Part shown: piece by piece, positions 4,091-20,123 of the stretch
How positions within the stretch are numbered: position 1 is the stretch's first letter
How the letters are laid out: the number at the start of each line of letters is the position of its first letter
Virus record (IMG/VR): IMGVR_UViG_3300032116_001382
Location: 1-22,827 of that record
Length of the DNA stretch: 22,827 nt
Strand: one strand, 5' to 3'
From: a virus
Translations under genes and position numbers: made by a program
Notes under the pieces: generated by a model
The model's input: the letters and a program-made list of their open reading frames with translations, nothing else
What the model was told of the DNA's origin: nothing
The model's database searches: none

Positions 4091-7000
4091 CACTGCGCCC
4101 TCTGCTCAACCGGCTGACTATCCCGGATTGCCTGGGCGATCATCGGCCCGATAGCCTCGGTGACCGCCTTGACGATGGAATCCTGGCCCATCAGGTTGAC
4201 CACGATGTCGTTCGCCCCAGACAGTTCGATCTGGCCTGGAATCTTGCCCACCGCCTCGTCGAACTTGTCCACAAAGGTGCCGAAGTTGGCCACGGCCCCG
4301 TTGAAGGTACTAACCGAGGTGGAGAAGCCGGACAGCCCCTGGCTGATCTGGGTGGCAGCCTGGTTGAAGCGGGCGGCGACGTCGAGAAGGTCAGGCCCGC
4401 CCTGTGCCATTCCTCCGTTGGCGAATCCCTGGATGCCGCCCACCACGCCGCCGTTGGCGAATTTCTGGACCTGTCTTTTGGGCACGACTAGTTCGCCTGG
4501 CTCCAGCAAGGCGGGGACGGTATCTCCAGACCCAACGCCAGGCACTATGCCGCCCGTAGCTCTTTTAACAATGTCTTTTTTGTCAAGATAAGGAGAATCT
4601 GCCAGTCGAGCATACATCGCAGCATGTATTGGGTTGCGATTGAGGCGCTCGTTGCTTTCTCTATTAAGTTCTTTCAGGCGATTTTCAACAAATCCCTTAT
4701 TCTTTTCATCCCATTCCTTCTGCATTTTTGGCATGTTTTCTTCGTAGGTCGGGGCGTGGGCAAAGACCCGACCTTCAAACTCTTGCCTTTGCTTATCTTT
4801 CTCTGCGTAAAACTTCCTTAGTTTTTCTGCTCCACGCTTAACTCCACCTGGATCTCTAATGTCCTCAATGCCTTCTCGCACATGCCAACGAGCTATTTCA
4901 TTGCCATGTTCTTCGCTTTGTTTTTTGGCGCGATAGTCATCCATCTTGCGTTTGGCTTCAGCTTCTTCTTCAGCCCGAACCTTTTCAGGATTTTTTATTT
5001 TGTTAATTTCTTGGAGATAGCGTGGATCGCCAGTTTTTAGATAATTTTCTTGGGCAATTTCCAACATCTTTTTAAGATGATTGGCTTCTGCCTCTTGACG
5101 ATTTGGTTCGGCTTTATTTTGACCGTTAGCTCTAACTCTTGCGTTGTGGGCTTCGACTGGATTTGAAGCGGATGCCATATTTTCGTTAGCAAGAGCGGGA
5201 TTGAGACGCAGCAGGCCACCCTGCAATGGATCGTTCCCGGCAGCAATAAATTGCTGTTGCTGTTTGATTTGTTGATCTTTTTGGGCTGCTGCTGCCGCTC
5301 CTCTAAGTGCGCGAGGATCAATGAACCTAGCAGCATAGTTCATTTGATTAAGTTGTTCTTTAGCTGCTACACGTTCTTCCATTGAGGCTTTGGTGTTTGC
5401 CGCCAACGCCCGAAGTTCTTTCGACCGAGCGATAAAGGCTTTTGGATCCTGCTGAAAAGAAGCGAATGCGTCTTGAGCACCAAGCATTTGACGCTGCGCA
5501 TCCATTTGTGCAACTAACGGATTGGTCAAAGTTGCATATAGTTGTCGAAATTCAGCAATTTTTTCTTTGGTTCTATTTCTTGGATTTTTTAGTTCGTCAC
5601 GAAGAGAGAAAAATTTAGCTTTGGCACCCGTGATTCCGCCATTGCCACCAATCATTTGGTTCATCGCTTCCATAGCGAGGAACTGTTGTTCATTTAGATT
5701 GCCATTATTATTGTTTGCTAAAGGATTGACTGTATTTTTAACAGTTTGCGGTTGGAACCCCATTTGAATATTTCGGTTCCCGCCCCACTTCGCAGCGCCA
5801 GCAGGAACCAAATTGTATTTGACTCCGTTGATGACAACATCGCCACCTTCTGCATATCCTGGTAATTTTCCGGTAGAGTTAATATGGTCGAGATTGTTTT
5901 TCCCAATCTTGGAAGCTTCGCTTGGCGTGAAAATGTGTTCGCCAGGCATAACCATGGCTGGAACAACCCCGCCCCTAGCCATGCGAGGAAGAGCAGCTAA
6001 GGTGTCAGCACCCAATTTTTGAACGGAAGACTTGCGGACAACATAGCTGCCTACCGGCAAATTGGCTCGGACAGAGTCAGTATTACCAACACCAGGCACC
6101 AGACCCCCAGAGGCAAATCCAAGAAGACCTTTGCCAGATTTGAATGCTTCAATTAGTCCGTTTGCGACACCAGGCCCTAAAACAGCTTGGCTAATAGCAA
6201 TAGCATTTTCCTTTTGGCTCAAAAAATCTTGCTTAACTTTTTCAGCTTCATCAAGTTGTTTTTTGTTTTTTAGGCTTCTGTCCTTAAATACATCAGAGGC
6301 CTTTGGTAAGGTGGTGGGTGCACCATAAGCACTAGCTAGAATCTCAAGAAGAGCAGCGTCTTTGGCATAACCAAAAGGACCTTTGTCTTCAGATTTCTTT
6401 AGCATATTGTTGATTGCGCCCGGGTTGGAAGTTATCCACATCCCGATTCGATTTAAGGTCATCGCATTTTTTCGGCCATTAACTTCATCAAGGGCAGCTG
6501 ATCGGCCTTCTGCGTCCACAGCAATGAGATAAGCTGCCTTCTCTGCTGAACTCAAACTGTCTGGGTCTTCATTAAATTTGCCTTGAGATTGAGCGGCAAT
6601 TTTGCCCATTAGAACATCTAGAGCTGCTCTTTGGATTAGGGTCATTTTGTTGCGGTTTGCAGCGTAACCGCGAATTTCATCTCCCGTTACATCTTCGGTG
6701 GAATTAATAAGCTTGTCCAGCCCCATAGCAGTCATTTGGGCTTGTTCAGCAGGACTCAACTTATTTTCAAGTATGCGACGCCTTTTAATCTCCAAAAGCT
6801 TAGTTTGAACAGCAGGGTTCAATTTATTAAAGGCATCGGCTTCCATGGCCATAAGCTGAAGCTTCATCAACTCCATATCTTGTTTAGGGCCAAACTGAGC
6901 ATTATTGCGCTCTTCAAAAATCTTAGCGATACCTTGCTCTGGGGTCTGCAAAGAACCAATTCTACCTTGCTGAATTCCTTTTACCAAGTCATTAGCTTTA

Positions 7001-10000
7001 GCAAGCTTTTGACCTTCTGCTTTTTGATTTGCTAAATCATTTTGAGCCTTATCAATAAGGGCCGAAATCGTTTTTTCAAAATCAAAATCTAAACCAAGCT
7101 TTTTGGTTCTATCTGTTTTTTTGGCCCACGCATCCATGTCTCCAGAAAATTCATTCGGGGAAGTAATTGCTAGACGCTGAAGGGCGTCGCCATAAATTTT
7201 ACCAAAAATTCCAGGAGGATAATATTTTTGAAGTATTTTTGTGTCAATTTTTCGTTTTTCTTTTTCTTGCAATTCGCCAATTACAGGCAAGTTTCCAATT
7301 TCGTTATAGTCATTTGCAAAAATGACACTTGATGTCCAATCTTTTGCAGTTTTAGCATATATTTTTGTGTCAGTCCAAAGAGATTCAAATTCTCTGCGGA
7401 GAGGATCAATATCCCCCAAAAGTTTTAACGCTCCATCTTCGTTTAAGGTATTTGCCATACGATCAACATTATTAAGGAATAAATGCCTTTTCAAATCTGG
7501 CTCTGATTGAATTATGTCATTCAAGCTAGAACCAATTCCAATTTTAAATTTATCATTAACATTATTTGTGAAAATTTCAGCTTCTTTTCCTACTTCGATA
7601 AACTTCTTTACTGCCTCATATATTTCCGAAACGCCGACTTCAATTTTAGTCGGTAGGGTTTTTATCGCCTTTGCGATTCCCATTTTTCTTTTGCCAACAT
7701 GATAACTTTCAAGGTCTCGGAAATTTAAAGTTTTATTTTTTTGATCTTCTATTGACATTAATTGAGCTAGGGCGTTCTTGATGCCAAGTTGCTCATCTGT
7801 TTCCTTGCCAGAAATAGATTTGATCCAATCTTTTTGCTTGTTGACAAATTTAAATCGCTCATCAGGCTTCATGTTTCTGAGCTGAAGAAGGAAAAGAATT
7901 TCTGAATTTGCGCGAGCCACTTTGCGAGCTTGCTCGGCAGCCTCCATAGTTTTTACAGGATTTATAATATCCGTAGTATCTGCTCCAATATTTTTTTGTG
8001 CGTTAGCAATATTATTTCTGGCTTCTTCAACCGTTCCACCATCTGCATATCCGGCGTTTATTTTCTCTAAAAGCTTTTTGTTTCTTTGGGCAGGTCCTGC
8101 CGCAACAACAAATTCACTAGGGTTAATTCTGGCGTTTACGGTATCAGAAGAATGGGGATTGAGACTGCCGCCCGAACCCCAGCCGCCCTTGTTGAAATAA
8201 CGAACCATACCGCCGTTAGCTCTTCCTTCGGGCCTAATAGCTAAGACTTCACCAAATCCCTGGACTTGTTGTCGCGCCTGATCAAGAGCGCCATTCAGTT
8301 CAGAGAACTTTTTGTTCGTGTTTCCGACAGCAGAAACAGATTCGCGCAATGTTTTGACGGTGATGTTGTCTCCTTCTTCCTTTGCGGCTTTAATAAGATT
8401 ATCAATGATTTTGTTATCGATGGTGCCTTGATTGCGCAAATCTTTTCCGGCTTGAAAAATATTTGAATTTGTTCGTTCGTTGGATTCTTTCTGGTATGTG
8501 GTAATTGCGTAACGGAAAGCTTCTGCAATATTCTCTTTGTTGCCGCTAAGAGTCGAAAGATATCCCGCTTTCGCATCCATGCTTTCCGAAAATAATGAAA
8601 GCAGTTTTTTTTGGTCAACGGCAGAAGTGAATCCCATGTCACCAAACTTATTCATCAGGATGCCAGAGACATCACTTTTTGCAGTCCCTCGAGCATAATC
8701 GTTGCCTGCTAAAGCAACAATATCATCAACAAAACTATTGGTATTGCCTAATGCCTTATCGGTTTTGCCTTGGACAATTCGTTGGTTCTTTCCAGCCTCA
8801 AAAATAGCATCAATACTCTTATTTTTTGGATCGTTCAAAGTATCTTTCAAGGCTTTGAACTGATCATCGGTTCCAACTCCGATTTTACCAAGCATGGAAG
8901 ACTGGCCAACTTGTTTCTCCAAGCCCTCCAGACGACTTTGTGCCTGCATCTGAAGGCTTTCCCGCATGAGCTTTTGATTTTCCATCATTGCTCGGGAAAG
9001 TTCATTGATAAAAGTTTGCTGGCCAGCTTGAAGTCTTGAGAAAAAGTCTGCTTGCAACTTTTGTTGCATTTCAACTTGAATGCGTGATGCTTCAACAGCA
9101 ACATCATAATTTGATTGAACAAAATTATCCAAAGCGCGCTCAAGAGCTGCCGTTTGAGGATCAAGGTCAAATGCGCCCCCAAAAGTTGTTTTCATAAGTT
9201 GAGTGGTCAAATCCTTGACATTAATACCACCCAAACCTGGCAATTTCATTTGGGGCGACAACGAAGAAAGCAGACCAAAGATTTGATTTTGTTGTTTTGT
9301 CGAGAAAGTCGCCGCAGTCCCCATGCGGGCAGCAGCCGCAAGCAACCTGAATGAGGATGCTATTTCTGCTCGACCTTCCGTATTTGCCGTGGCGTAGCGA
9401 AGCCCAAGAGCCTGCCTGCCTTCACGGTCAGATTGAATTTTGGAAAGTTTCTCCTGGGCTTGGGATGTCCTTTCGGAAACATCCGTCAGATGCTTTAGGG
9501 CTTGGCCGAGTTCGGCGGCTTTGGTTTTAAGGGATGACAGTTGAGTGATTGCCGCATTTTGTTCGGCAATGTTGCCACCCTTTGTTGCCTTGGCTATCTG
9601 CTCTTCCGTTCGACGAATTTCGTCAAACACCCCACCCATGGCACTAGCAATAAATTGGGGATTTCCGGAACCGGGTCCGCCAAAACCAGTCAACCTTTGC
9701 TGCCTTGCTTGTTGTAGGCCTTGATTCATGTTGAAGAGACCTGCGTCAGCAGCGTCTTCAGAAATCAAACGCCTTTTGAGTCCAACCTGGATGCGATTAC
9801 GCACCGAAGCCATTTCGGCCATATTGGCCTTGTCCATCAACTCTCCGGTGGCGCGTGTCCTGTTGGCGAGTTCCGACAAGCCTTCCGCAAACATGCGGCC
9901 ACGCTCATCGAGGTTCTTGGCGATTTCAGTAAAAGATTGCTTAAGAGGTTCGGCCATGGGGCCAAGGAGCTTCTGGATAACCTTGCCCATATCCTGGCCG

Positions 10001-13000
10001 GTTTCACGAAGCATTTTACTGAAATCTTCTGACCCCAACTGACTAGAGACCATGTTTGTAACCATGGCCGCAGAAGTATTATCGACCCCGCGGGCAGCAA
10101 GACCTTTGCGAAGGTTTTCCCCGATTTGAACGCTCATGTCGGCTCCGGTGGCCAAATTGGCGACCGGTTGAGAACGCACGGCGTTTATGATGCCAGGCAA
10201 AAGACGTCCGGCAACGGTGACAGCGTCAGCAGTCTTTTCTGCGTCTCCACCCGCTACACCAGCAGTCTTTGTAATAGAACGAACAGCCCCCATAAAATCT
10301 TCACGGTCGGAACCAAGTGGTCTTTGGAGGGATTCTGTTAAGCCAGAACCAGAGAACGGAGTTGTGCTGCCATCCATAAAGTCGGAAACATTTTTAAGGG
10401 ACGCAGTCATCCGTGTTAATCGTTGAGTGGCAACTTCAACCGCAGAAGACAAACCGCCAAATGTGGCAGCGGAACGATTAATGTCAGTTTCGGAAGTTTG
10501 TTGTCGGCGTTTAAGAACCTCACTTTCTTTGGTTTTTTGGAACATATCAAACAGGGTTTTTCGGAACATCTCAGGGTCTTGTTCCGTGGCGGTGGCTACC
10601 CTTGAAAACAAGCGAGAGCCAATACCACCATTTTGAGAAAGGGCGGCTTCAAAATCTTTGCGAAGTGAAGCCGTATCTTGAATGTCTGCATTACCAGTAT
10701 TACGAACGGCTTGTTCCTGCACTAATTTGGTTAGTGCGTCCATCATGGAGGCGGCTTGACCAGCCATTGCCTCCCGCATATTCTTTGTTAATTCAGTTTG
10801 GAAGTTTTCCTGAGACCCAGAAACTAAACCAAAAAGATAGGATGTATTTCTTCCGGATTTTGCGGCAGTTTCCCGATCAATTGTGTTAAAATTACCCTCA
10901 ATAGTCTTAGAGTTTTGAGGGGTAAGGGCATAAGTGCCTTTGGCAAAGTTGGAAAGCGCATCGGTTGTTTTCTTGAGAGCTAGTCCGATTTTAGCTTCAG
11001 AAATCTCTTGAGCAGCTTCTTTGAAGGAATTAACAAGACCAAAAAGGCCACCTGTCGCAGCACCGATACCAGCTCCGAGAGGACCAAAAGCAGACCCAAC
11101 CTGAGCGCCCGTAACAAGGCCAGACAATCCACCACTAAGCACTCTGGCGGTTTTATAAGAACCCTCTCTGCCGTTGACGGCGGCATTGTCAGCACTTCCA
11201 GCAACATTTGACAATGCGTCCGACACATAACTGGCAATTACTTGACCACCCAAAAATCCAGATTGAGAAGAAAAAGCATTACCCAATACGCCTTTTGTAG
11301 AATTTAAAGCATTTGAAAACTTCTGTTTTAGGCCACCGCCGTAACCTTGCTTTAAGGCTTCGGCATCAAGCAACCTGTTATTTTTGACAACGATTTCCGC
11401 ACCGCTGCGTAGTGCGTGTTCAAACTTTTGAGTGGTAAGAAAGCGAGCGGTTTCTATATCTTTAATTTGATTTTGTTGTTGGACTTGTAGACTTACGCTG
11501 TCTACATACCGTTTCATGACATTGTTTTTGGCGTTTTCGGAGATGTCTTTTTTCTGGGCATCGCTTACATTTTTGCCACGACCTTTAGGGTCGATGACAT
11601 CGTACATTTTTTGTATTTCGTCATTTAGTATTTTTCCAAGAGTATTTTTATTAGGATTGGCTCGTGGCGGGATAGTGCCTGCGCCGTAGGCAGCTTCAGC
11701 CCCACGGAAATTGACCTTAACCTGGCCAGAGGCATCGGTGGAAGTAGATATGCCAATTCCTTGGAGTTTCTCTTGATTTTTTTCAAGGATGGCTCTTTGA
11801 CGAACTTCCTCGGCTGCTGCTCCGCGGGCATCGCTTTCATAGCCAGAACGATAACCTTTAAGTAGGTCACGAGCCGACTTTGTAGACGATACACGCCCGG
11901 ATTTGCTAATCTTACCCAGTTCTTTGAAATCAATACCTTCGTTATCTGCAATCCTTTTGGCTATTTCCTGACGGGTTGTCGTTAATCTTTTTGCTTCGGC
12001 AACTGCTTCGGGGTCAAAGTCAGCTCTCTTTTGAAGTCGGTTTATGTTCCGGCTTAACTGCATGTATTGATCGATATCGCCGGCCCGACTTGTTGCCTGA
12101 GTGCGAATATTACTGACTTGGTTGAGGCGCTCCTGAGCACGGCTAACCTGTTCGGCCGCTTTCATGATGCGGGTTGTCTGCATCGCAGCAACCTTTTGAA
12201 CTCCCTTTTCATTCATTCCGGGATTGTTGGTTCGCAAATTCTGTCCAATGGCCTCTTGCAACATTTGAGGCCGATAACCGCCGACTTTACGCAATTCACC
12301 CAAGAACTGAATTGACTCCGCACCCGAAAATTGTGGCATTTCGGTGGAGTATGCTCCGATCTGATTGCCGGTTTTCATCGCTGATTCGATGAGTTCCCGG
12401 TATTTCATTTCGGATTTGAAAGCAGCGTAGCCACGCCTTTTTTTAGGGGGCGGTGGAGGGGGTGGAGAAGGAGGACTAGGTGGCAGATCAGAAGGAGTAG
12501 GAGGGCTAGGAGGACTTCCACCACCATCAGTAGGAATGGAGCCTTTGCCAGGAGGTCCACTGCCATCTAGCCTTCCAAAATAATCATTAAAATCTCGATA
12601 TTCCTTGACGGAATTAAATCCCCAATACCTTGCTTCTTTTAATTCAGCATATACCTTAGAGTTATAAGCTTCATAACGCTTACGATCTTCCCTAGTGAGG
12701 CCTGGAGGCGCAACACGGGTGCCGGTTATTTTGTCAGTAGCCTTACTTATCGAAACAGTTGCCAATTCATTAGCAGCAATACCTGTGGGCAAAACAGCTT
12801 TGTGGCGTTCTGCGCGTCCCTGATTCATTCTTTCGGTAATGGCATGGGCTGCCAAATACCCTTGGGAGTTTTCTGGAAAAGTGCCGCCAGGCGTCTTTTC
12901 GTTACTGAGAATTTCCCTAATCGGTTCTTTTACAATGACTTCCGGTTTGGCCGGAAGCCCTTCTTTTTTCTTGCGTTTTCCACGAACGGGAGCAATTCCT

Positions 13001-15684
13001 TCATCACGCATGGCCTGCCGGACATCGCGTTTGGCGTCTGCTTCTCGCTTTGCGTCCATTTCGGCCCTGCGCCGTATGAGGTACTCACGACTCTCTGCCT
13101 TGGTCATGGGCCGGGCAGCTGGTTCAGCAACCGCAACAGGTACTGGGTCTGATTCCGGCTCCTTTACTTTTTTAACTGCTTCCGTAATTTGTTTGCCAAC
13201 AGATGCAACTTTCTTCCGGGCTTGTTCAACCTTCTTTGTTGGCCCAGAGTCAGCCTTTGGCTGGGTGGCCCCCATTTTTTCGACAACTTCCTTGCGGAAA
13301 GTCTGATCCACCTCCTTGACCAGAGCCAATAGCTGTGCTTGTTCTTTTTTGGTCACCCCCTGCATATCCTTAAAGGCATCCAGAGGATTCTCCAAAGACA
13401 TTGCTTGGACGGATTTTGCCAAAATCTCATGTGGTTGAAGTCTATACTTTATATAGTCTTGTTTGTTTTTGCCTGTATTCTTAAACTCGTCAGGCTCCAT
13501 TCCCATCAAGCCCTTTTCAAACAACGGAGCCAATTTTTTAATGATAGTATTTGTTTCTGTTCCTTCTTGATTAGACAGAAAGTTGCGACCTGTTTTCTTG
13601 CCAGCTATTTTTCGGCCAGCCGCTAGGTCTGCAACATGCGCCATTTCATGAACAACAGTACTCAAAGGGTTCGGTGCATTTTTCAAATTAGATGTTATAT
13701 ATACTTTATTTTTTTGTTCATTTGCGTCAACAAACCCGTATGCTTTACTTAGAGGTTTTGATGAGACCCCATATTCAACCTTTGTGTCAGCCAAACTAGG
13801 AATAACTTTTGCCAAATCGGCAAAATTACCTGATTTGAACGCCTCTTTCTGTAGGCGACTAGCATACTGCTGGAATTTGGCTTCTTTGTTTGGATCCTTG
13901 CCTTGCTTCAAAATCTGGTCGATCAAGCGAACCGTTGGGCGGGCAGCCGTCTGATTGGCATCCGGCAACGAAGGGGAGCTGAGGTAGGATTTCAAATAGT
14001 CGAAAAATCCACCCAAAGCATAACCAGGCAATTTCCCGCTGCGATTAATCTGATTGAGGCTGGAGGCACCGATTTTCTTAGCCTGGTCAGGAGTATAAAC
14101 ATACTCACCAGGTGTCAGCATCACATTTGCTTTATTGCCAAGCCTAGAAAGGTTTTCTGCGCCAAACTTTTGAACGGCAGATTTACGGACTACATACGAG
14201 CCGGACGGGAGGGACGCAGGAACGGTGTCCTTGTCGCCGACGCCAGGAACCATACCACCGGACGCAAAACCGACAGGACCGCCCTGGTTGCGAGCCAGCA
14301 GAGAACCCTTGTCGTGGTAAGTTACCCCCTGATAAAACCTAGCTGCTACTGGGGCAATGCTTTGGATTATTTTTGCGGAGGCCATTGCCGTAAGCATGGG
14401 GAGGAGTGGCTTTGCCGCCTCCAAAACCATCAACATGCCTTTGGCTAGAGACTCAAAACCCGAAAAAGCCACTTTAAAAGAATTGTTGTCCAACAACGAG
14501 CGGCCGAGCGAAAGGTAACTTTCTTGAAGTTTGGTCAAGCGATTAGCGTAGGATTCTGTTGCTTGCGAAGCATTGACGGTCAAACTCACCCGCCCAGCTT
14601 CTGCCACCATCAAAGCTCGTTCGGTGGTTGACCATTGCTGAATCAAAGGAATTACTTTAGAGATTTGTCGGTAGCCGCCCAAATCTTCAACGATGGCGCT
14701 ATACCTTGGGTCTGCTTCTGGCAATTGGGTCAGGGCAGACGAAAGTCGCCGGATAGCCTCGTATGCGCCCACGAATTGATTGGTGAGACCAAGGTCTCCC
14801 GCCTTCATGGCCTCCTCGCGAGTGAACCGCAAGTTAACCCCAAACTCTTTCAAGGCGTTTACGGTATCGTTGCGCTGGATGCGGGTAAAGATAGTTCGCA
14901 AGCCGGTTGCGATGGATTCCGCTGATTCACGAGTTGTTTGACGAACAGAGGTAAACAGGGCAAGTAACTGATTGAGATCGCCACCGGTTGCCTTAAAGGC
15001 ACCACCCGTCCTTCGGACGGCTTCGATCAAGTCGCCAGCTTCAACCGCAAAAGCTCCGGCCACCGCATTCATTGAGCCGATGGCCTTGTCTAGGTCGGCA
15101 GCCTGAATTTGAAACTGCTTCATCACCGCAATGGCACCTTCGCCGGTTTGAGCCATTGAGTCAAAGTTGGGGGCGAGGGCAGATTTTGCTAAGGCCTCAA
15201 GAGCATCCCTAGTTTCATTAATGTTGAAGTCTGCTTGCTTCAACGTCACCGCCATCTTGATGAGTTCTTTGCTAGAAACGCCGTAAGCCGTAGCTAAACG
15301 AGTAACTTCCTGGCCAACCTGGGCAACCTCTGATGCCGATTCAACGCTCACTTGGCGTAAACGAACCATTTCTCTGTCAAATTCAATAGCTTGAGTTACG
15401 GCACTGCGAATTCCAGATGCCACCGCAATAAAAGGTACTGCTGCCGAACTGAAGGCGGCAAAACGCTTAAATGCTAAGCCGGACTGCTGGGCAAACTTGT
15501 CCATGGCCGTGCCGGCCCCGCTGATTGCCTCTTTTACCGCCCGAATATTGTTCATGTCGGCCCGGACAGGGACGGACACGCCACGGGTTGTGCCACGAAG
15601 GCCCGTGTTAATTTCGTTGGCGATATTGCGGATTGCCCCGGATGCGAGGCGTAGATTTAGCTGTCCTGTGATATCAAATGCCAT
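4090..15684 (-). CDS. Giant tail tape measure protein with embedded HExxH metallopeptidase-like domain
   Basis: 3864 residues from an ATG at 15684. Tape measure proteins set tail length, fill the tube lumen and leave ahead of the DNA. The N-terminal 400 or so residues look like the TP901 tape measure family: a hydrophobic segment at about 72-98, then repeated helices with RTGGAFKATGGDLNQLLAL and ARLRTIF-like patterns, then a hydrophobic stretch at about 418-450. Other parts in order: GGxVPGxG repeat A (473-558); a zincin-like domain with HEMAH at 679-683 and a candidate third ligand E753; a Lys/Glu-rich region; a polyproline tract (about 1053-1081); long coiled-coil-like helices; a glycine-rich hydrophobic segment (about 1515-1553); Gln-rich helices; and repeats C (2488-2550), B (3190-3281) and D (3708-3765). 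Upstream chaperone-like genes and downstream tail-tip genes support the call. Base composition varies sharply along the frame. Confidence 0.95.
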   Translation of the reverse strand: MAFDITGQLNLRLASGAIRNIANEINTGLRGTTRGVSVPVRADMNNIRAVKEAISGAGTAMDKFAQQSGLAFKRFAAFSSAAVPFIAVASGIRSAVTQAIEFDREMVRLRQVSVESASEVAQVGQEVTRLATAYGVSSKELIKMAVTLKQADFNINETRDALEALAKSALAPNFDSMAQTGEGAIAVMKQFQIQAADLDKAIGSMNAVAGAFAVEAGDLIEAVRRTGGAFKATGGDLNQLLALFTSVRQTTRESAESIATGLRTIFTRIQRNDTVNALKEFGVNLRFTREEAMKAGDLGLTNQFVGAYEAIRRLSSALTQLPEADPRYSAIVEDLGGYRQISKVIPLIQQWSTTERALMVAEAGRVSLTVNASQATESYANRLTKLQESYLSLGRSLLDNNSFKVAFSGFESLAKGMLMVLEAAKPLLPMLTAMASAKIIQSIAPVAARFYQGVTYHDKGSLLARNQGGPVGFASGGMVPGVGDKDTVPASLPSGSYVVRKSAVQKFGAENLSRLGNKANVMLTPGEYVYTPDQAKKIGASSLNQINRSGKLPGYALGGFFDYLKSYLSSPSLPDANQTAARPTVRLIDQILKQGKDPNKEAKFQQYASRLQKEAFKSGNFADLAKVIPSLADTKVEYGVSSKPLSKAYGFVDANEQKNKVYITSNLKNAPNPLSTVVHEMAHVADLAAGRKIAGKKTGRNFLSNQEGTETNTIIKKLAPLFEKGLMGMEPDEFKNTGKNKQDYIKYRLQPHEILAKSVQAMSLENPLDAFKDMQGVTKKEQAQLLALVKEVDQTFRKEVVEKMGATQPKADSGPTKKVEQARKKVASVGKQITEAVKKVKEPESDPVPVAVAEPAARPMTKAESREYLIRRRAEMDAKREADAKRDVRQAMRDEGIAPVRGKRKKKEGLPAKPEVIVKEPIREILSNEKTPGGTFPENSQGYLAAHAITERMNQGRAERHKAVLPTGIAANELATVSISKATDKITGTRVAPPGLTREDRKRYEAYNSKVYAELKEARYWGFNSVKEYRDFNDYFGRLDGSGPPGKGSIPTDGGGSPPSPPTPSDLPPSPPSPPPPPPPKKRRGYAAFKSEMKYRELIESAMKTGNQIGAYSTEMPQFSGAESIQFLGELRKVGGYRPQMLQEAIGQNLRTNNPGMNEKGVQKVAAMQTTRIMKAAEQVSRAQERLNQVSNIRTQATSRAGDIDQYMQLSRNINRLQKRADFDPEAVAEAKRLTTTRQEIAKRIADNEGIDFKELGKISKSGRVSSTKSARDLLKGYRSGYESDARGAAAEEVRQRAILEKNQEKLQGIGISTSTDASGQVKVNFRGAEAAYGAGTIPPRANPNKNTLGKILNDEIQKMYDVIDPKGRGKNVSDAQKKDISENAKNNVMKRYVDSVSLQVQQQNQIKDIETARFLTTQKFEHALRSGAEIVVKNNRLLDAEALKQGYGGGLKQKFSNALNSTKGVLGNAFSSQSGFLGGQVIASYVSDALSNVAGSADNAAVNGREGSYKTARVLSGGLSGLVTGAQVGSAFGPLGAGIGAATGGLFGLVNSFKEAAQEISEAKIGLALKKTTDALSNFAKGTYALTPQNSKTIEGNFNTIDRETAAKSGRNTSYLFGLVSGSQENFQTELTKNMREAMAGQAASMMDALTKLVQEQAVRNTGNADIQDTASLRKDFEAALSQNGGIGSRLFSRVATATEQDPEMFRKTLFDMFQKTKESEVLKRRQQTSETDINRSAATFGGLSSAVEVATQRLTRMTASLKNVSDFMDGSTTPFSGSGLTESLQRPLGSDREDFMGAVRSITKTAGVAGGDAEKTADAVTVAGRLLPGIINAVRSQPVANLATGADMSVQIGENLRKGLAARGVDNTSAAMVTNMVSSQLGSEDFSKMLRETGQDMGKVIQKLLGPMAEPLKQSFTEIAKNLDERGRMFAEGLSELANRTRATGELMDKANMAEMASVRNRIQVGLKRRLISEDAADAGLFNMNQGLQQARQQRLTGFGGPGSGNPQFIASAMGGVFDEIRRTEEQIAKATKGGNIAEQNAAITQLSSLKTKAAELGQALKHLTDVSERTSQAQEKLSKIQSDREGRQALGLRYATANTEGRAEIASSFRLLAAAARMGTAATFSTKQQNQIFGLLSSLSPQMKLPGLGGINVKDLTTQLMKTTFGGAFDLDPQTAALERALDNFVQSNYDVAVEASRIQVEMQQKLQADFFSRLQAGQQTFINELSRAMMENQKLMRESLQMQAQSRLEGLEKQVGQSSMLGKIGVGTDDQFKALKDTLNDPKNKSIDAIFEAGKNQRIVQGKTDKALGNTNSFVDDIVALAGNDYARGTAKSDVSGILMNKFGDMGFTSAVDQKKLLSLFSESMDAKAGYLSTLSGNKENIAEAFRYAITTYQKESNERTNSNIFQAGKDLRNQGTIDNKIIDNLIKAAKEEGDNITVKTLRESVSAVGNTNKKFSELNGALDQARQQVQGFGEVLAIRPEGRANGGMVRYFNKGGWGSGGSLNPHSSDTVNARINPSEFVVAAGPAQRNKKLLEKINAGYADGGTVEEARNNIANAQKNIGADTTDIINPVKTMEAAEQARKVARANSEILFLLQLRNMKPDERFKFVNKQKDWIKSISGKETDEQLGIKNALAQLMSIEDQKNKTLNFRDLESYHVGKRKMGIAKAIKTLPTKIEVGVSEIYEAVKKFIEVGKEAEIFTNNVNDKFKIGIGSSLNDIIQSEPDLKRHLFLNNVDRMANTLNEDGALKLLGDIDPLRREFESLWTDTKIYAKTAKDWTSSVIFANDYNEIGNLPVIGELQEKEKRKIDTKILQKYYPPGIFGKIYGDALQRLAITSPNEFSGDMDAWAKKTDRTKKLGLDFDFEKTISALIDKAQNDLANQKAEGQKLAKANDLVKGIQQGRIGSLQTPEQGIAKIFEERNNAQFGPKQDMELMKLQLMAMEADAFNKLNPAVQTKLLEIKRRRILENKLSPAEQAQMTAMGLDKLINSTEDVTGDEIRGYAANRNKMTLIQRAALDVLMGKIAAQSQGKFNEDPDSLSSAEKAAYLIAVDAEGRSAALDEVNGRKNAMTLNRIGMWITSNPGAINNMLKKSEDKGPFGYAKDAALLEILASAYGAPTTLPKASDVFKDRSLKNKKQLDEAEKVKQDFLSQKENAIAISQAVLGPGVANGLIEAFKSGKGLLGFASGGLVPGVGNTDSVRANLPVGSYVVRKSSVQKLGADTLAALPRMARGGVVPAMVMPGEHIFTPSEASKIGKNNLDHINSTGKLPGYAEGGDVVINGVKYNLVPAGAAKWGGNRNIQMGFQPQTVKNTVNPLANNNNGNLNEQQFLAMEAMNQMIGGNGGITGAKAKFFSLRDELKNPRNRTKEKIAEFRQLYATLTNPLVAQMDAQRQMLGAQDAFASFQQDPKAFIARSKELRALAANTKASMEERVAAKEQLNQMNYAARFIDPRALRGAAAAAQKDQQIKQQQQFIAAGNDPLQGGLLRLNPALANENMASASNPVEAHNARVRANGQNKAEPNRQEAEANHLKKMLEIAQENYLKTGDPRYLQEINKIKNPEKVRAEEEAEAKRKMDDYRAKKQSEEHGNEIARWHVREGIEDIRDPGGVKRGAEKLRKFYAEKDKQRQEFEGRVFAHAPTYEENMPKMQKEWDEKNKGFVENRLKELNRESNERLNRNPIHAAMYARLADSPYLDKKDIVKRATGGIVPGVGSGDTVPALLEPGELVVPKRQVQKFANGGVVGGIQGFANGGMAQGGPDLLDVAARFNQAATQISQGLSGFSTSVSTFNGAVANFGTFVDKFDEAVGKIPGQIELSGANDIVVNLMGQDSIVKAVTEAIGPMIAQAIRDSQPVEQRAQ
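4396..4563 (-). repeat. Tape measure GGxVPGxG repeat D (C-terminal, short form)
   Basis: Encodes about residues 3708-3763: RATGGIVPGVGSGDTVPALL, then EPGELVVPKRQVQKFANGG, followed by further FANGG motifs. This form is the one commonly seen near the C-terminus of tape measure proteins. It lies about 100 residues before the end of the protein. Confidence 0.75.
5842..6117 (-). repeat. Tape measure GGxVPGxG repeat B (long form)
   Basis: Encodes residues 3190-3281, starting FASGGLVPGVG, then GSYVVRKSSVQKLGA, and ending with MPGEHIFTP and GKLPGYAEGG. It is the closest copy to repeat A, with a four- or five-residue insertion in the centre (ARGGVVP). Confidence 0.85.
8035..8223 (-). repeat. Tape measure GG-type repeat C (diverged)
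   Basis: Encodes residues 2488-2550: RANGGMVRYFNKGG, then SSDTVNARINPSEFVVAA and KINAGYADGG. It keeps the scheme of GG(M/L), DTV, a short loop, a (P)xEFVV strand and a closing GYAxGG, but lacks VPGVG. It is a weaker relative of copies A and B. Confidence 0.6.
11025..11142 (-). other. Glycine-zipper hydrophobic segment in the tape measure protein
   Basis: Encodes about residues 1515-1553, including GLSGLVTGAQVGSAFGPLG and GAGIGAATGGLFGLV. The pattern of small residues every three or four positions with hydrophobic neighbours is typical of glycine-zipper membrane helices. Tape measure proteins often have such segments, and some act in crossing the host inner membrane. Topology here is inferred. 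Confidence 0.65.
12445..12525 (-). other. Polyproline linker in the tape measure protein
   Basis: Encodes about residues 1053-1081. Proline and serine alternate (SPPSPPTPSDLPPSPPSP) and the run ends in a block of seven prolines followed by KKRRG. On the plus strand this appears as G-rich runs. It probably forms a stiff, extended linker between the N-terminal globular modules and the helical part of the protein. Confidence 0.85.
13285..13962 (-). other. Zincin-like (HExxH) metallopeptidase domain inside the tape measure protein
   Basis: The stretch around residues 575-800 contains VVHEMAHVADLAAG, a full HExxH motif at residues 679-683 (bases 13636-13650). The preceding strand-like KVYITSNL and the later LQPHEILAKSVQAM, with E753, match the usual zincin layout of an edge strand, an active-site helix and a distal glutamate ligand. 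The distal ligand is my guess. The domain lies in an AT-rich patch: the line 13681-13740 has 15 G/C out of 60 by hand count, while repeat A just upstream has 37 of 60. This suggests a module inserted into the tape measure. A role in wall penetration or in self-cleavage is speculative. Confidence 0.65.
14011..14268 (-). repeat. Tape measure GGxVPGxG repeat A (long form)
   Basis: Encodes residues 473-558, starting FASGGMVPGVG, then GSYVVRKSAVQKFGA, and ending with TPGEYVYTP and GKLPGYALGG. Over the first 40 residues it matches copy B at 29 positions without gaps (hand count). The two copies differ clearly in DNA sequence, so the duplication is old or the copies arrived separately. Confidence 0.85.
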
Positions 15685-15772: not shown

Positions 15773-16609
15773 TTACACCGCGGCGGGAGCCGGGGTGGAG
15801 GTAGAAGCTTCGGTCAAAACCGGGTTTCCTTCATCGTCCAGGAAGGGCTTTTCATCCACCAGATAGTTGCCATCGGCGTCCACCCGGTTCCCCTCCCTAT
15901 CCACATATTCCCCGGCTTCGTTGATGTACCGGCCCTCTTCGTCAACGAGTCGGCCATCGGCATCGATCTTCCGGCCCTGCTTGTCGATGAGGTGAAGACT
16001 GTCATCGGCAAACTTGAACTTGAGAAGGAACTGGTTTTCAGGCAGCTTCTTCTCGTAGTCGTCCTCAAGGTTGTAGATGATCTTCGCTAGGGCGCTGGCG
16101 GCGGGGCCGACGGCGGGGTCATCCTCCTTGGTCATGTAGTCCTCGTAGGACTTGAAATAGGGCTTCCCATCGTTGGCGTGGACAGTACACGCCGACACGA
16201 AGAAGTTGAACTGGGCGTTGTCGGCCTGAGCCTCGCAAGAGTTGTTGTCCAGGCTCATCCGCTCGGAATTGAGGGCGCGAAGTTCACCACGGTCCCGGCG
16301 AAGCTGGATGGCCATTTCTCGGGCCTCCGAAAGCTTGATGCCACCCCCGCGGATTTTGCGTTCCTTTTCGGCGATTTGACCTTGCAGCTTGCGGAGTTCT
16401 GCCTCTTTGGCATCGTCCCAGAGCTTTTGCTCACGCATCACCGACTCAATCTTGGCCCGGAGAATAGCCCCGGACTCAACAGCATCCCGGAAAGCCTTGT
16501 TGTAGACCTTCTGGGCATCCTGGCGAACCTTGGCGTTCGGGCGAAGAACAGCCAGCTCGACTTCTTTTCCACCAATCTCAACCTTAACCACTTTCTTGTT
16601 GGCGCTCAC
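15773..16609 (-). CDS. Probable tail assembly chaperone, C-terminal heptad-repeat form, 278 aa
   Basis: GTG start at 16609 overlaps the upstream stop by four bases (GTGA), with GGAGGA about six bases before it. The N-terminal half is charged and helical. Residues 32-66 (AQKVYNKA ... KLWDD) align without a gap to residues 53-87 of the upstream 16985-18028 protein (numbered from its longest possible start), with 14 of 35 identical by hand count, so the two are paralogues. The middle has an alpha/beta-looking part with NDGKPYFKSYEDYM. The C-terminal residues 208-263 form a (I/V)DxxGxx repeat, followed by a low-complexity TSTPAPAAV tail. Genes between the tail tube and tape measure usually encode assembly chaperones that bind the tape measure protein, and this is the basis of the call. 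No slippery frameshift site was seen. Confidence 0.6.
   Translation of the reverse strand: MSANKKVVKVEIGGKEVELAVLRPNAKVRQDAQKVYNKAFRDAVESGAILRAKIESVMREQKLWDDAKEAELRKLQGQIAEKERKIRGGGIKLSEAREMAIQLRRDRGELRALNSERMSLDNNSCEAQADNAQFNFFVSACTVHANDGKPYFKSYEDYMTKEDDPAVGPAASALAKIIYNLEDDYEKKLPENQFLLKFKFADDSLHLIDKQGRKIDADGRLVDEEGRYINEAGEYVDREGNRVDADGNYLVDEKPFLDDEGNPVLTEASTSTPAPAAV
15821..15988 (-). repeat. Heptad (I/V)DxxGxx repeat at the C-terminus of the 278-aa chaperone-like protein
   Basis: Residues 208-263 read as consecutive seven-residue units: IDKQGRK, IDADGRL, VDEEGRY, INEAGEY, VDREGNR, VDADGNY, then one extra Leu, a degenerate VDEKPF, and LDDEGNP. The Asp and Gly positions are fixed in nearly all units. 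The acid and glycine pattern suggests stacked beta-hairpin turns, perhaps with metal binding. That structure is inference. Confidence 0.85.
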
Positions 16610-16974
16610 GATTCATCCTCCACGGGTAGGGTCTTCTGACAACGGTTCCAGCTAACCGTGTATTGGGCCAATTCTGATTCGACGGCACGCAGCTGGGCGT
16701 TGCCGTTGTTCAGGATTGAGGAGCGACAGGTTTCCCAAATCTGCTTCCATTTCTCCTTTGCTGCTTCCCGCTGTTCCGGCGTGGCGTTGTGGCCCCACAA
16801 CTCGCCGAAACTTTGTTCCACGGCACTCAAGGCACCAATGAAAGCGGTTCGCATTTTCGTGGAGAGAATCCTCTGGAGACGAACGCGTGAATTGCGCTCG
16901 TGATTCCTAGCGGCTTCTTCCTCATTACGACGGGCTGCGTCCGCAGCAGCCTCTATCTGGTTATAAGCATCCAC
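16606..16974 (-). CDS. Conserved phage protein between the chaperone paralogues, 122 aa
   Basis: GTG start at 16974 with AAGGAGG five bases upstream; the SD begins two bases from the upstream stop. The protein is helical and highly charged at the N-terminus (AAADAARRNEEEAARNHER), followed by MRTAFIGALSAVEQSFGELW, a W-rich helix, SSILNNGNAQLRAVESELAQ and YTVSWNR. From memory, this combination (a GAL/I-x-x-IE helix, LNxGN, then a tryptophan-bearing end) occurs in small proteins of large tailed phages, but I cannot name a verified function. Its position between two paralogous chaperone-like genes suggests a part in tail assembly. Two features fit a small soluble protein: no membrane segment and an acidic tail (LPVEDES). 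Confidence 0.7.
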   Translation of the reverse strand: MDAYNQIEAAADAARRNEEEAARNHERNSRVRLQRILSTKMRTAFIGALSAVEQSFGELWGHNATPEQREAAKEKWKQIWETCRSSILNNGNAQLRAVESELAQYTVSWNRCQKTLPVEDES

Positions 16975-16984
16975 TTGATCCTCC

Positions 16985-18028
16985 TTACTGGCCTGGCAAA
17001 GACCGTTGAGCCATTAGCATGATTTCCCGACGGGAATCAGGCATGTGTTGCTCCTCGACTTCGCCCTTTTTAGCGATGTGCGCCAGTCTCTCTCTTTTAA
17101 TCGCAGCAGCCTGGGGGCTGTTCAAAGATTCAATATTTTGTAAATCTTCATCTGTTTCTGCCATCAAGAAAATCTCGCCGGATTCAGGCAAATTCATACC
17201 GGAAAGCATGCCTTCAGCAGTCGCTTCCTTGCGTTGACGCTCTCTTTCCCTGCGTTGGATAACCAACCAGCCATCAAAGGCGTCATCATCCCGTATGATG
17301 TCATCGTGCGGTGGGTTGGGGTGTTCGGCGATGCTGTCGTACAACTGTGACCAAGACAGCAAATTGCGCTGCTCCTCGGTCAAATCGACGGCACACCGAC
17401 CAAATATATCCAGGCAATTATCCTTGCAGTTCCATACCGAACGCCATTGATCGGAACGAGCCAAAGCACGCATGACCACATCTGAAATTTGAGCTTCCGA
17501 ATAAGCAGTAACTGCCTCATCAAGCAGGGAATCATTACCCTTGTAAAACTCATCATCTTTCCAGACGCGCTTACCTTTATCGTTCAGCAAGCCGCTACCA
17601 ACCAAATAGCGGGTGCGGGCGACCTGGGCAAAGCCGGTTGCTCCCATCGGCGAATAAATGTTTTTTTGTGCGTAAAGGGAGGCGAGTTCCTGTTTGGCGG
17701 CAGAAAGTGCCTTCCGGATGACATCTCGTTCCTTGGACTTGAAGAATGCCCTAAACAACCCGACCTTGAGCTTTTCAATATCCTTGTCTAAGGTTGCCGT
17801 CTGTTTTTGTCGCTCGTCATCCCAGAGTCCATTGGATCGCAACAGATTTTCTATTTCACTATCGCTGTAAAGTTCGTCTTCCAAAGCTTCAGTTAAGGCT
17901 TCTTGGTAAACCTGCTGGGCTTTATAACGACGGAGACGGCCTGGCTGGCGGATCAGATACCGCTTGCCGTCAACGGAGAAGCGCAGACAGCCCGCAATGA
18001 TACGGGCGATCAGAAGGTCAAAATCCAA
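16985..18028 (-). CDS. Probable tail assembly chaperone, paralogue of the 278-aa gene
   Basis: The open frame extends up to an ATG at 18076, but I prefer the TTG at 18028 (347 aa). It has GGAGGA four bases before it, while the ATG has no properly spaced binding site and the extra 16 codons contain a strong terminator-like hairpin. The protein opens LDFDLLIARIIAGCLRFSVDGKRY. Residues 53-87 (numbered from the ATG) match the downstream 278-aa protein, with AQxVY and LWDD motifs at identical spacing. A charged helical region and a WxSVWNCKDNCLDIFGR segment follow, and the C-terminus is rich in Arg and Glu. Its position after the tail tube gene and before the tape measure supports a chaperone role, as do the paralogy and lack of catalytic motifs. 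Confidence 0.6.
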   Translation of the reverse strand: MDFDLLIARIIAGCLRFSVDGKRYLIRQPGRLRRYKAQQVYQEALTEALEDELYSDSEIENLLRSNGLWDDERQKQTATLDKDIEKLKVGLFRAFFKSKERDVIRKALSAAKQELASLYAQKNIYSPMGATGFAQVARTRYLVGSGLLNDKGKRVWKDDEFYKGNDSLLDEAVTAYSEAQISDVVMRALARSDQWRSVWNCKDNCLDIFGRCAVDLTEEQRNLLSWSQLYDSIAEHPNPPHDDIIRDDDAFDGWLVIQRRERERQRKEATAEGMLSGMNLPESGEIFLMAETDEDLQNIESLNSPQAAAIKRERLAHIAKKGEVEEQHMPDSRREIMLMAQRSLPGQ

Positions 18029-18032
18029 GGTG

Positions 18033-18038
18033 TCCTCC
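18033..18038 (-). promoter_or_regulatory. Shine-Dalgarno sequence deciding the TTG start at 18028
   Basis: The minus strand reads GGAGGA, then CACC, then TTG. This is the best-placed binding site near the 5' end of the 16985-18028 gene, and it lies just past the hairpin at 18049-18066. Confidence 0.65.
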
Positions 18039-18066
18039 AAAGAGAAGAGGGGGCCTTGCGGCCCCC
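18039..18066 (-). terminator. GNRA-tetraloop hairpin after the tail tube gene (terminator candidate)
   Basis: The minus-strand RNA forms GGGGGCC-GCAA-GGCCCCC: a perfect seven-pair G-C stem (18049-18055 with 18060-18066) and a GCAA tetraloop, followed by UCUUCUCUUU. It lies 32 bases after the tail tube stop. It may end or reduce transcription of the abundant tube message, or protect its 3' end, with readthrough feeding the chaperone genes. Confidence 0.6.
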
Positions 18067-18097
18067 CCTCCGTCATTCCTTACTAACCGGGCAAGGC

Positions 18098-19084
18098 TTA
18101 GACCTTGTTCACGGTCAGGTCGTTGAAGGTGCGGAAGCTGTAGGTCACCGTGCGGTTGGCGCCGTCGGTTCCGCCACCCTGGTAGTTGGCGGATTGCAGC
18201 TTGCACTTGTCGCCGAGGTCGATGTCGGTGCCGTCGGCGAAGAAGATGTGGATCGACTCGTCGTTCAGCTGGTCGGCATTGCCGTCATTGGCCTGGGCGA
18301 AGTCGCCGGATTGGGTCAGGACCTCAAATTCCGCAGTCACTTCCACGGGGAACTTGACATAGCGGAAGAAGGGACCCTTGCGGCCCAGCTCCATCAGCTG
18401 CTCACGACCCAGGTTGCAGTTGATGCTGACAGACTGGATGTGGGCGCTGTAGCCGCTGCCGGGGATGTCGGTCAGCTTGCCGGTGCCGCTGTTGACGCCG
18501 GGGATCACCTTGGGGAAGATGCAGTCGTCCATGAGGACGTGTTGCCGACGCACGATGCCGGAAGCGGCGGTGGGGGCCTCAGAAGCCGGGGCGTTGGGGG
18601 TCCAGTAGCCGCCGCCGGAAGCCCAGATCTTGTTGTTGCCCACCACGGTCATCGACTCGGTGGCATTGCCGTCCATCGCGCTCTTGAAGCTGATGGCCGA
18701 GGCGTAGGCGCCGGACACCAGACACTGGGCGACAGGCGTGCCGCTGGCGGACACGGCGGTGTCGGCGTGGACCGACAGCACCAAGTTGCAGCGGGAGTTG
18801 GCGCGGCCGATGAGGGTGTTGTTGACGCGGCCGGAGGTGGCCAGGTCGAACATCAGCGGGGTGCCGTCCAGAACGCGCTCGAGCTGGACTTCGATTTCCG
18901 GCACGCCTTCGATGTTCTGGTACAGGGAGAGCATACCCAGTTCGTAGGCAGCTTCCAGATTGTAGTTGGTGGTGATGGTTGCGCTCTGAAGGCCACGAAC
19001 GCGGGTGTAGGTGCCCGCATTAGCGCCACTGTGTGGGCCGATTCCAACAGCAGTGATGGCGTAGAATACGCGATTGTTTGCCAC
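18098..19084 (-). CDS. Probable major tail tube protein, 328 aa
   Basis: GTG start at 19084 with AAGGAG six bases upstream. The 58-base gap before it is among the longest of the right half, so its translation does not look coupled to the gene before. The sequence is beta-rich: VRGLQSATITTNYNLEAAYE, then QNIEGVPEIEVQLERVLDG. I recall this early block (a tail-tube-like domain with ENIExxPExEVxxERVLDG) from structural proteins of large tailed phages. A Gly/Ser/Thr-rich middle and a C-terminal FEVLTQSGDF and SFRTFNDLTVNKV strand region follow. The gene is the most G/C-rich stretch I counted (44 of 60 bases at 18721-18780), and a strong hairpin follows it, consistent with high expression. Place before the chaperones and tape measure supports the tube call. 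A sheath protein is less likely given the small size. Confidence 0.7.
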   Translation of the reverse strand: MANNRVFYAITAVGIGPHSGANAGTYTRVRGLQSATITTNYNLEAAYELGMLSLYQNIEGVPEIEVQLERVLDGTPLMFDLATSGRVNNTLIGRANSRCNLVLSVHADTAVSASGTPVAQCLVSGAYASAISFKSAMDGNATESMTVVGNNKIWASGGGYWTPNAPASEAPTAASGIVRRQHVLMDDCIFPKVIPGVNSGTGKLTDIPGSGYSAHIQSVSINCNLGREQLMELGRKGPFFRYVKFPVEVTAEFEVLTQSGDFAQANDGNADQLNDESIHIFFADGTDIDLGDKCKLQSANYQGGGTDGANRTVTYSFRTFNDLTVNKV

Positions 19085-19142
19085 GGTGTTCTCCTTGATT
19101 CGGGAATTGGCCCAATGGGCTTACCGCAATCAAGTACACCGG
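19085..19142 (-). other. Intergenic gap before the tail tube gene, with its ribosome binding site
   Basis: These 58 bases hold the AAGGAG site of the tube gene and a short GCCCATTGGGC inverted repeat at 19110-19120. I see no convincing promoter boxes. Confidence 0.4.
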
Positions 19143-20123
19143 CTAGGGTAGATCGACAGACAAAGTAGCTCGGACAACAGCCCGAAAAAGAGGGGGTTTG
19201 GACGGCATCTCGGCAGACTTTATTTCTTCCCAAGTTATTTTGCGCCAAGTATAGGCTCCGGATCCGGCTGGTTCGACCATTTGCGGGTAGGTGTAGCCAG
19301 ACGGGTTAATTTGGCCATCGTAGGTAAGAGGGAAACGATTGTCGTTGGCTAGTCTCTTCTTATCGATGCCCTCAATCCTGCGTTGCCATTGATTAACAAT
19401 GATGTCGTGAAGCTGCTTCCGGTCAAACTTGGTTTCGGCCAAGATGTGGAAAACAACATCCTGACTGTGGATTCGCGACAGATTGCCCATTTGCAGGCCT
19501 TCCATGTCGACGCGGGGAGCGGCTCCGATGACGATGGCGGGCAGCTGAACCCGGTTGGCCGACAGGACGTCCCAGGCGCCCGAGCCAGCTGGCGACTTGA
19601 ACTGGGGGTCCGCCGGATTGAAGCTGTCAAACTGCACAGCCTTGAACCACTGGGCCTCGTCCATATCCAGCCGGACATTCTTGAACGAAAACTCGCAGGC
19701 GATCCGGGTGCCGGTCGGCACGGGGGTATTCAGAACGACTCGCCCCTCCGGATAATTGATCCGGTAGCCAGAAACCCCGACGCTGGTGTTGGGCCGGAAG
19801 ATGCCGCCAACATAGATGCCGCTGACCTGTATCGGTTGGCGGTTGTAGTCGACGCCGGACTCGTAGACCCAATTGGAGCGAAACCCCTCCCAGACCGTCC
19901 CTGCCGTGTAACGCGGGTCACGCGCTGGCCTCAGGACATATGGCTCGGCCCCGTGCGAACCCACCCCGGATGGATAGGTCCCGGACGGGAAAGTCACATT
20001 AGTGAAGGCGCCGACGCTGAGAAGCCCCCAATCAAGGAACTGGTAGCAGGACCACTCCAGAAGGTCGCTAACAAGGGGATCGCCATACTGGCTAACGCCG
20101 GATAATCTCGTTAAATTGCTCAT
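19143..20123 (-). CDS. Neck/tail-completion structural protein, 326 aa
   Basis: ATG at 20123 overlaps the upstream stop by four bases (ATGA), indicating coupled translation. The N-terminus (SGVSQYGDPLVSDLLEW) leads into a Gly, Ser and Pro-rich beta region with aromatic residues. Later blocks include YVGGIFRPNTSVGVSGYRIN, FSFKNVRLDMDE and a helix with HDIIVNQWQRRIEGIDKKRL, and the protein ends in RAVVRATLSVDLP. I do not recognise a named family. Its place directly before the tube gene and after the probable gp10-like neck gene suggests a tail terminator or head-tail joining protein. There is no signal peptide or membrane helix. Confidence 0.6.
   Translation of the reverse strand: MSNLTRLSGVSQYGDPLVSDLLEWSCYQFLDWGLLSVGAFTNVTFPSGTYPSGVGSHGAEPYVLRPARDPRYTAGTVWEGFRSNWVYESGVDYNRQPIQVSGIYVGGIFRPNTSVGVSGYRINYPEGRVVLNTPVPTGTRIACEFSFKNVRLDMDEAQWFKAVQFDSFNPADPQFKSPAGSGAWDVLSANRVQLPAIVIGAAPRVDMEGLQMGNLSRIHSQDVVFHILAETKFDRKQLHDIIVNQWQRRIEGIDKKRLANDNRFPLTYDGQINPSGYTYPQMVEPAGSGAYTWRKITWEEIKSAEMPSKPPLFRAVVRATLSVDLP

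Follow-up and report, generated by a model that had tools for sequence, protein, structure and literature searches.

We analyzed a virus-derived DNA stretch of 22,827 nucleotides (IMG/VR virus record IMGVR_UViG_3300032116_001382, positions 1-22,827; hereafter the window), which encodes a giant tape measure protein (TMP) containing a candidate zincin-like protease domain (Table 1). The assignment as a TMP rests on PhageMin_Tail, the only Pfam family over its curated cut-off in this protein (E 3.7e-23, 82.9 bits against a cut-off of 33.2), and on matches to three PHROG tape-measure families. This confirms the initial annotation, which had placed a HEMAH motif inside a tape measure, between a GG-repeat and a Lys/Glu-rich region. 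On one side of the domain lies GG-repeat A, which is 57% identical to GG-repeat C and matches several PHROG tape-measure families; on the other lies a linker that begins with a charged part (residues 809-915, 27% K+E and 44% K+R+D+E) and ends in a stretch of 56% Pro/Gly (residues 1036-1085). Four GG-repeat elements are present in this one TMP, and no family passed its cut-off in the parts that separate GG-repeat B from C and C from D.

Two relatives were identified in viral contigs, and repeated searches returned the same two each time. The first, IMGVR_UViG_3300042691_043547, is identical to the window over 18.5 kb and is perhaps the same virus. The second, IMGVR_UViG_3300021963_000001 (149,106 bp), shows 84% DNA identity, with TMPs that are 91.9% identical over 3860 aligned codons. 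Two scans of genome contigs confirmed no relative, and neither of the records G001 and G002 gave a match to the terminase family PF03354.

Table 1. Features of the tape measure gene in the window (dS, synonymous divergence; dN/dS, ratio of nonsynonymous to synonymous divergence)
Feature	TMP residues	Window position	Strand	Basis or remark
TMP open reading frame (ORF)	3864 aa	15684..4090	minus	single ORF
PhageMin_Tail domain	126-336	14677..15309	minus	Pfam match
GG-repeat A	468-558	14011..14283	minus	directly upstream of protease-like domain
Low-dS cassette	about 560-1085	12430..14007	minus	protease-like domain and linker
Zincin-like domain	570-808	13261..13977	minus	HExxH and E motif, sub-cut-off Peptidase_M91, dN/dS 0.009
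HEMAH	679-683	13636..13650	minus	proposed zinc ligands H679 and H683; general base E680
E753 of EILAKSV	753	13426..13428	minus	proposed third zinc ligand; sequence alignment to comparators
Linker	809-1085	12430..13260	minus	charged, then Pro/Gly-rich
GG-repeat B	about 2482-2579	7948..8241	minus	matches repeats of L234
GG-repeat C	3186-3281	5842..6129	minus	similarity to GG-repeat A
GG-repeat D	3705-3772	4369..4572	minus	repeat comparison

The HEMAH motif and family matches of the domain

HEMAH is the sole HExxH motif in the 3864-residue TMP, and an aspartate (D686) lies three residues past it. Histidine makes up only 0.49% of the TMP, so that 0.006 HExxH motifs are expected at such a composition; at least one HExxH occurred in 0.59% of 20,000 composition shuffles of the TMP, and HExxH with a downstream glutamate motif in 1 of the 20,000. 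We defined this downstream motif as E-x-[hydrophobic]-A-x-[small]-[hydrophobic], about 25-100 residues after the HExxH, a pattern that E753-ILAKSV fits. E753 also aligns with the E-x-x-A motif of 11 zincin-like comparator segments, themselves picked for having that motif.

The best Pfam match of the domain is Peptidase_M91 (PF14891; E 0.0031; 18.3 bits, cut-off 25), with DUF6782 (E 0.028) and Tox-MPTase3 (E 0.13) behind it, all three below cut-off. Our six-frame search with Peptidase_M91 identified the TMP domain as the sole match in the 149-kb relative (E 1.6e-4) and in the 69-kb relative (E 8.1e-5). This family matched 4 of the 15 records searched, none over cut-off, and the other two matches, whose scores bracket the 18.3 bits of the TMP domain, were an N4-like virion RNA polymerase at 22.3 bits and, at 13.2 bits, a large phage protein whose function is unknown. 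Peptidase_M90 (PF06167) was absent in G001, where the domain is identical over 239 residues, and among the Pfam matches of the window domain. In PHROGs, phrog_4529 (“minor head protein and DNA pilot”) spans residues 605-759, i.e., the entire core of the domain, with an E-value of 0.0041.

Searching 50,697 phage records with the domain by tblastn gave 7 records with a match at E <= 10, and the same search against plasmids gave no match. The top phage match (E 0.2, 26% identity) starts at an HELIH motif and lies in Limnohabitans phage YIMV22061, in a protein of 1576 residues. This protein is a member of phrog_342 (internal virion protein with endolysin domain), the part of it that matches the domain (residues 600-739) resembles the N4 virion RNA polymerase family (6.7e-12), and we take it to be T7 gp16-like. 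A sequence search of the PDB returned four weak matches, none named as a metallopeptidase.

Divergence from relatives and exchange of the cassette

Using the 149-kb relative, IMGVR_UViG_3300021963_000001, as the reference for all dS and dN/dS values, we observe that the domain is identical at 239 of 239 protein positions, with a dS of 0.21 and a dN/dS of 0.009 that reflects one path-averaged nonsynonymous change. The linker has a similar dS (0.23) and a dN/dS of 0.235, differing from the domain with a Fisher p of 1.6e-5, and four of its residues (1071-1074) are missing in the relative. Selection on the domain also differs from that on residues 1086-3864 (p 0.007). Outside the cassette formed by domain and linker, dS rises to 0.89 in the upstream part of the TMP and to 2.0 at residues 1086-1500.

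Across 12 shared genes, 94 windows of 120 codons gave a median dS of 1.03, and the seven lowest values all fall within TMP residues 541-1084, with a minimum of 0.051 at residues 601-720. The edges of this low-dS island roughly coincide with the end of GG-repeat A on one side and with the Pro/Gly-rich stretch on the other. Its simplest reading is that related phages recently exchanged the cassette by recombination, with the protease-like domain apparently constrained and the linker less so. Divergence is uneven inside the cassette (about 0.5 at residues 720-800; the window at residues 721-840 has a dS of 0.395 and ranks 12th), so that the exchange may have taken more than one event. The low dS could alternatively stem from constraint on synonymous sites. 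A second low-dS patch (0.30 and 0.38) occurs between GG-repeats B and C, at TMP residues 2765-2944 (window 6853-7392), and may represent another exchanged module with an unknown fold.

The initial annotation had considered the domain an acquired module on account of an AT-rich island of about 25% G+C, against about 62% just upstream. That contrast compares extremes, in that 25% is reached only by the poorest 75 bp (29% for the poorest 100 bp). The whole 678-bp stretch (13285-13962) has a G+C content of 42.0%, which is the 17th percentile among same-sized windows of the TMP gene; 6% of this gene's 100-bp windows are under 35% G+C, and TMP residues 2000-3000 are similarly AT-rich (41.5% G+C). 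Since the 678-bp stretch is unexceptional, we rejected base composition as a sign of acquisition, and the proposal now draws on the dS island and on the HExxH motifs in other GG-repeat TMPs described below.

HExxH motifs in other large viral proteins

Scans of viral contigs for HExxH patterns returned 58 and 55 stretches, 6 of them shared, in which reading frames were then located. Outside the phage of the window there were 30 ORFs of more than 500 aa, of which 16 were named by PHROGs and the other 14 were, by eye, mostly near copies of those 16. The 16 comprise three virion RNA polymerases (L019, L058, and L062), three head-morphogenesis or minor-head proteins (L025, L076, and L105), one TMP (L099), and nine ORFs with no family or with unknown-function families only. 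In the three head-morphogenesis or minor-head proteins, the HExxH segment lies towards the C-terminus.

The contig of L099 (record G014) encodes a 3808-aa TMP with PhageMin_Tail, GG-repeats, and HEFAH at residue 2511. Between its GG-repeats is an OmpA domain that is over cut-off (3.7e-15, residues 1905-1998, L135), and a Peptidase_M90 match in this record (3.7e-4 per genome) is under cut-off. A separate scan with the GG-repeat gave at least 120 stretches, yielding 111 ORFs of at least 200 aa among the matches listed, the set to which all counts that follow refer. HExxH occurs in 3 of these 111 ORFs, with 4 motifs against 0.17 expected. One of them, L234, is a TMP-like ORF of 2621 aa, truncated where its contig ends, in which no PhageMin_Tail was found, with five GG-repeats and with HEMAH and HEYGH located between repeats. 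The TMP of G018, which includes L241, has 4160 aa, PhageMin_Tail, HEFGH at residue 3454 past the last recognised GG-repeat, and a LysM domain over cut-off between two GG-repeats (residues 3002-3046, L259). Among GG-repeat ORFs of at least 1500 aa, 2 of 13 have HExxH, together 3 motifs; shuffled versions of the 13 average 0.069 motifs, and 0 of 2000 reach 3.

Several observations argue against generalizing from these cases. The 1500-aa limit was picked after the hits were known. Control motifs occurred in few ORFs (H..EH in 1, HH..E in 1, and EH..H, H.E.H, and HQ..H in none), but HD..H was present in 2 (3 motifs), near the frequency of HExxH, and a hydrophobic-flanked HExxH and its reverse were each found in 1 ORF. 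These counts make the GG-repeat sample suggestive, not conclusive. L157 (226 aa, HEGGH), which is among the three ORFs with HExxH, is not a convincing case. In G018, the HExxH is followed by no recognised repeat, so that it may not lie between repeats. Two TMPs found via the GG-repeat, one from a Nodularia phage (3290-aa frame) and one from a Mycobacterium phage, lack HExxH.

Over 637 N-terminal alignment columns, the TMPs of G014 and G018 share 40% identity, yet the domains between their GG-repeats differ. The window TMP has GG-repeats in common with G014, G018, and L234, and a weak N-terminal similarity to G014 and G018. A regular expression for the third ligand had no match in G014, G018, or the first L234 domain; the latter contains an ELFAV stretch with a glutamate at residue 2073 that matches the third-ligand motif by eye. 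By-eye readings of ART-like and CHAP-like domains in G014 and G018 were unsupported, as PF03496 and PF05257 matched 0 of 4 records. The GG-repeat element also matches a hypothetical protein of Pseudomonas phage F116, adjoining a methyltransferase gene.

Fold, activity, and target of the domain

The unique HEMAH, the downstream glutamate motif, the sub-threshold metallopeptidase matches, and the strong purifying selection all point to a domain that is likely of the zincin type. Weighing against this are, first, the family searches: no Pfam match of the domain reaches its curated cut-off, NCBIfam gave no match, and phrog_4529 was matched with a 207-aa version of the domain and lost with a 250-aa version, and in 2 of 15 records that did not include G001 and G002. 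The assignment of the third ligand is also tentative, in that E753 was recognised through comparators selected for that very motif, and a glutamine stands opposite E753 in the alignment to the Limnohabitans phage protein. The N-terminal 470 residues of the TMP are constrained as strongly as the domain (Fisher p 0.48). A protein search of G014, G017, and G018 with the domain found nothing, and a BLAST comparison with the G014 domain shares the motif alone, which leaves either parallel acquisitions or very distant relatives.

An AlphaFold model from two sequences had a predicted local distance difference test (pLDDT) score of 47, with no metalloprotease among the best 50 solved matches listed. 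Adding the 11 comparator segments raised the pLDDT to 65, with a predicted template modeling score (pTM) of 0.69, and the eleven best solved matches of this model were all the lethal-factor metalloprotease domain (Z 5.2-5.7), followed by an unrelated protein at Z 5.0; the tool itself warns of common arrangements under Z 8. With the same model, Foldseek gave no match at E <= 0.001 and ranked lethal factor third (E 0.91). Of the 9 comparators scanned, 4 passed a metallopeptidase-type Pfam cut-off, and the lethal-factor match is therefore partly circular; hhalign aligned the domain with the comparators over only 20 columns around the HExxH (probability 91%). Structural support for a zincin is thus weak and partly circular in these models, and lethal factor is a fold-level neighbour only. 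The zincin-like domain of the initial annotation is supported by its motif anatomy, by metallopeptidase families under cut-off, and by strong purifying selection, while the structure models are no proof of the fold.

Our preferred reading, which we hold with slightly less than even confidence, is that residues from about 570 to 808 form a zincin-type metallopeptidase (H679-E680-x-x-H683 and E753), carried as cargo of the TMP between GG-repeat A and the linker and directed at a host or envelope target in trans. The domain would fold as a zincin, bind zinc, and ride inside the tail with the TMP. A TMP fills the tail tube and must exit before the DNA, as set out for a gene transfer agent in passages of PMC7296036, and ejected effectors are described for MuF-type proteins and the N4 RNA polymerase in passages of PMC5512222. 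On ejection, the domain on its flexible linker would reach the cell envelope or the cytoplasm and cut a protein there, with a host or envelope protein as the favored main target.

Zincin metallopeptidase domains are known in polyvalent phage proteins, e.g., the N4 virion RNA polymerase, from the sections of Iyer et al. (2017, PMC5512222) that cover them, and that polymerase carries its HExxH domain in its C-terminal part (PMC12633501, in the passage concerned). The window domain resembles these in its HExxH helix, its later glutamate, and its giant virion protein carrier, and D686 fits one phage-type clade with Asp three residues after HExxH; it lacks the conserved His that ends strand 2 in that clade, as there is no His in residues 600-678. 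Polyvalent proteins combine two or more effector domains in one chain, and in the window TMP the only family over cut-off is PhageMin_Tail. The carrier here, however, is a TMP, and “tape measure”, “tail length”, and “tail protein” each occur 0 times in the main text of PMC5512222. The internal virion protein of Limnohabitans phage YIMV22061 likewise holds its HELIH inside a large virion protein, but one of a different kind. Effector proteins of Peptidase_M91 are alike in strand and HExxH helix, although the window domain scores below the cut-off of that family. A cargo protein with HExxH motifs is described for a contractile injection system in part of PMC12210884, i.e., on a tail-like particle, yet separate from the tape measure. 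In the literature searched, mostly open journals judged by listings and passages, we found no published HExxH zincin in a TMP.

The alternative that survives best, although we consider it unlikely, is self-processing, in which the domain would cleave the TMP that carries it, or the neighboring linker, in assembly or ejection and so free itself or the part nearest the head. Sequence alone does not distinguish this from cleavage in trans. A long flexible linker adjoins the domain, and self-processing has been proposed for the metallopeptidases of polyvalent proteins, citing P1 DdrB cleavage, in the same passages of PMC5512222 that describe the N4 virion RNA polymerase as packaged unprocessed. 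The linker, however, evolves faster than the domain, with no conserved cleavage site evident, which argues mildly against a site in cis.

Of lower probability is a zincin-like fold without catalysis, i.e., a spacer or binding domain whose motif is kept for metal or structure. Within a ruler protein, a globular domain might have a part in assembly, but the H, E, and H of the HExxH and the downstream E motif are all intact, and a dN/dS of 0.009 at a dS of 0.21 fits poorly with it. We regard a chance HExxH within an unrelated helical domain as quite improbable as well: family and fold matches are weak, and that to phrog_4529 depends on domain boundaries, but only 0.006 motifs are expected per protein, the downstream motif joins HExxH in 1 of 20,000 shuffles, and the domain is the sole Peptidase_M91 site in two genomes. 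A cell-wall hydrolase aiding DNA entry is highly improbable and appears unlikely by family, since no wall-hydrolase family such as M23, SLT, or NlpC/P60 was matched in Pfam or PHROGs by the TMP or the domain; to our knowledge, M23 enzymes do not use HExxH. The TMPs of G014 and G018 do have OmpA or LysM domains, and M23 or transglycosylase domains have been described in TMPs of Basilisk-like phages (PMC6145125, in part), with T5 pb2 listed as muralytic in PMC5380687; as far as these entries go, such TMPs likewise contain an enzyme, but M23 or other wall hydrolases in place of an HExxH zincin.

A broader proposal, which we regard as possible but would not yet favor, is that giant TMPs are delivery chassis. 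GG-repeats would mark slots where phages swap effector or envelope-binding modules, among them zincins, OmpA, and LysM, and the ruler would bring these into the bacterium as the DNA is ejected; the zincin here would be one recently swapped cargo. If TMPs do hold interchangeable protease cargo, enzymes that take over the host or block its defences could be sought at a further place in long-tailed phages, giant TMPs would owe their added length to something other than the length of the tail, and GG-repeats would be usable as a searchable marker of cargo.

Elsewhere in the window (1833-4093 and 15773-21848), 10 tail-cluster proteins that we scanned had a best PHROG match no better than E 0.07, and the tail protein at 1833-3491 had no match among phage records; the lineage of this phage is poorly sampled. 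Two short proteins of the 149-kb relative (L069, 13421-13831; L068, 9188-9565) seem planctomycete-like, which is an impression only.

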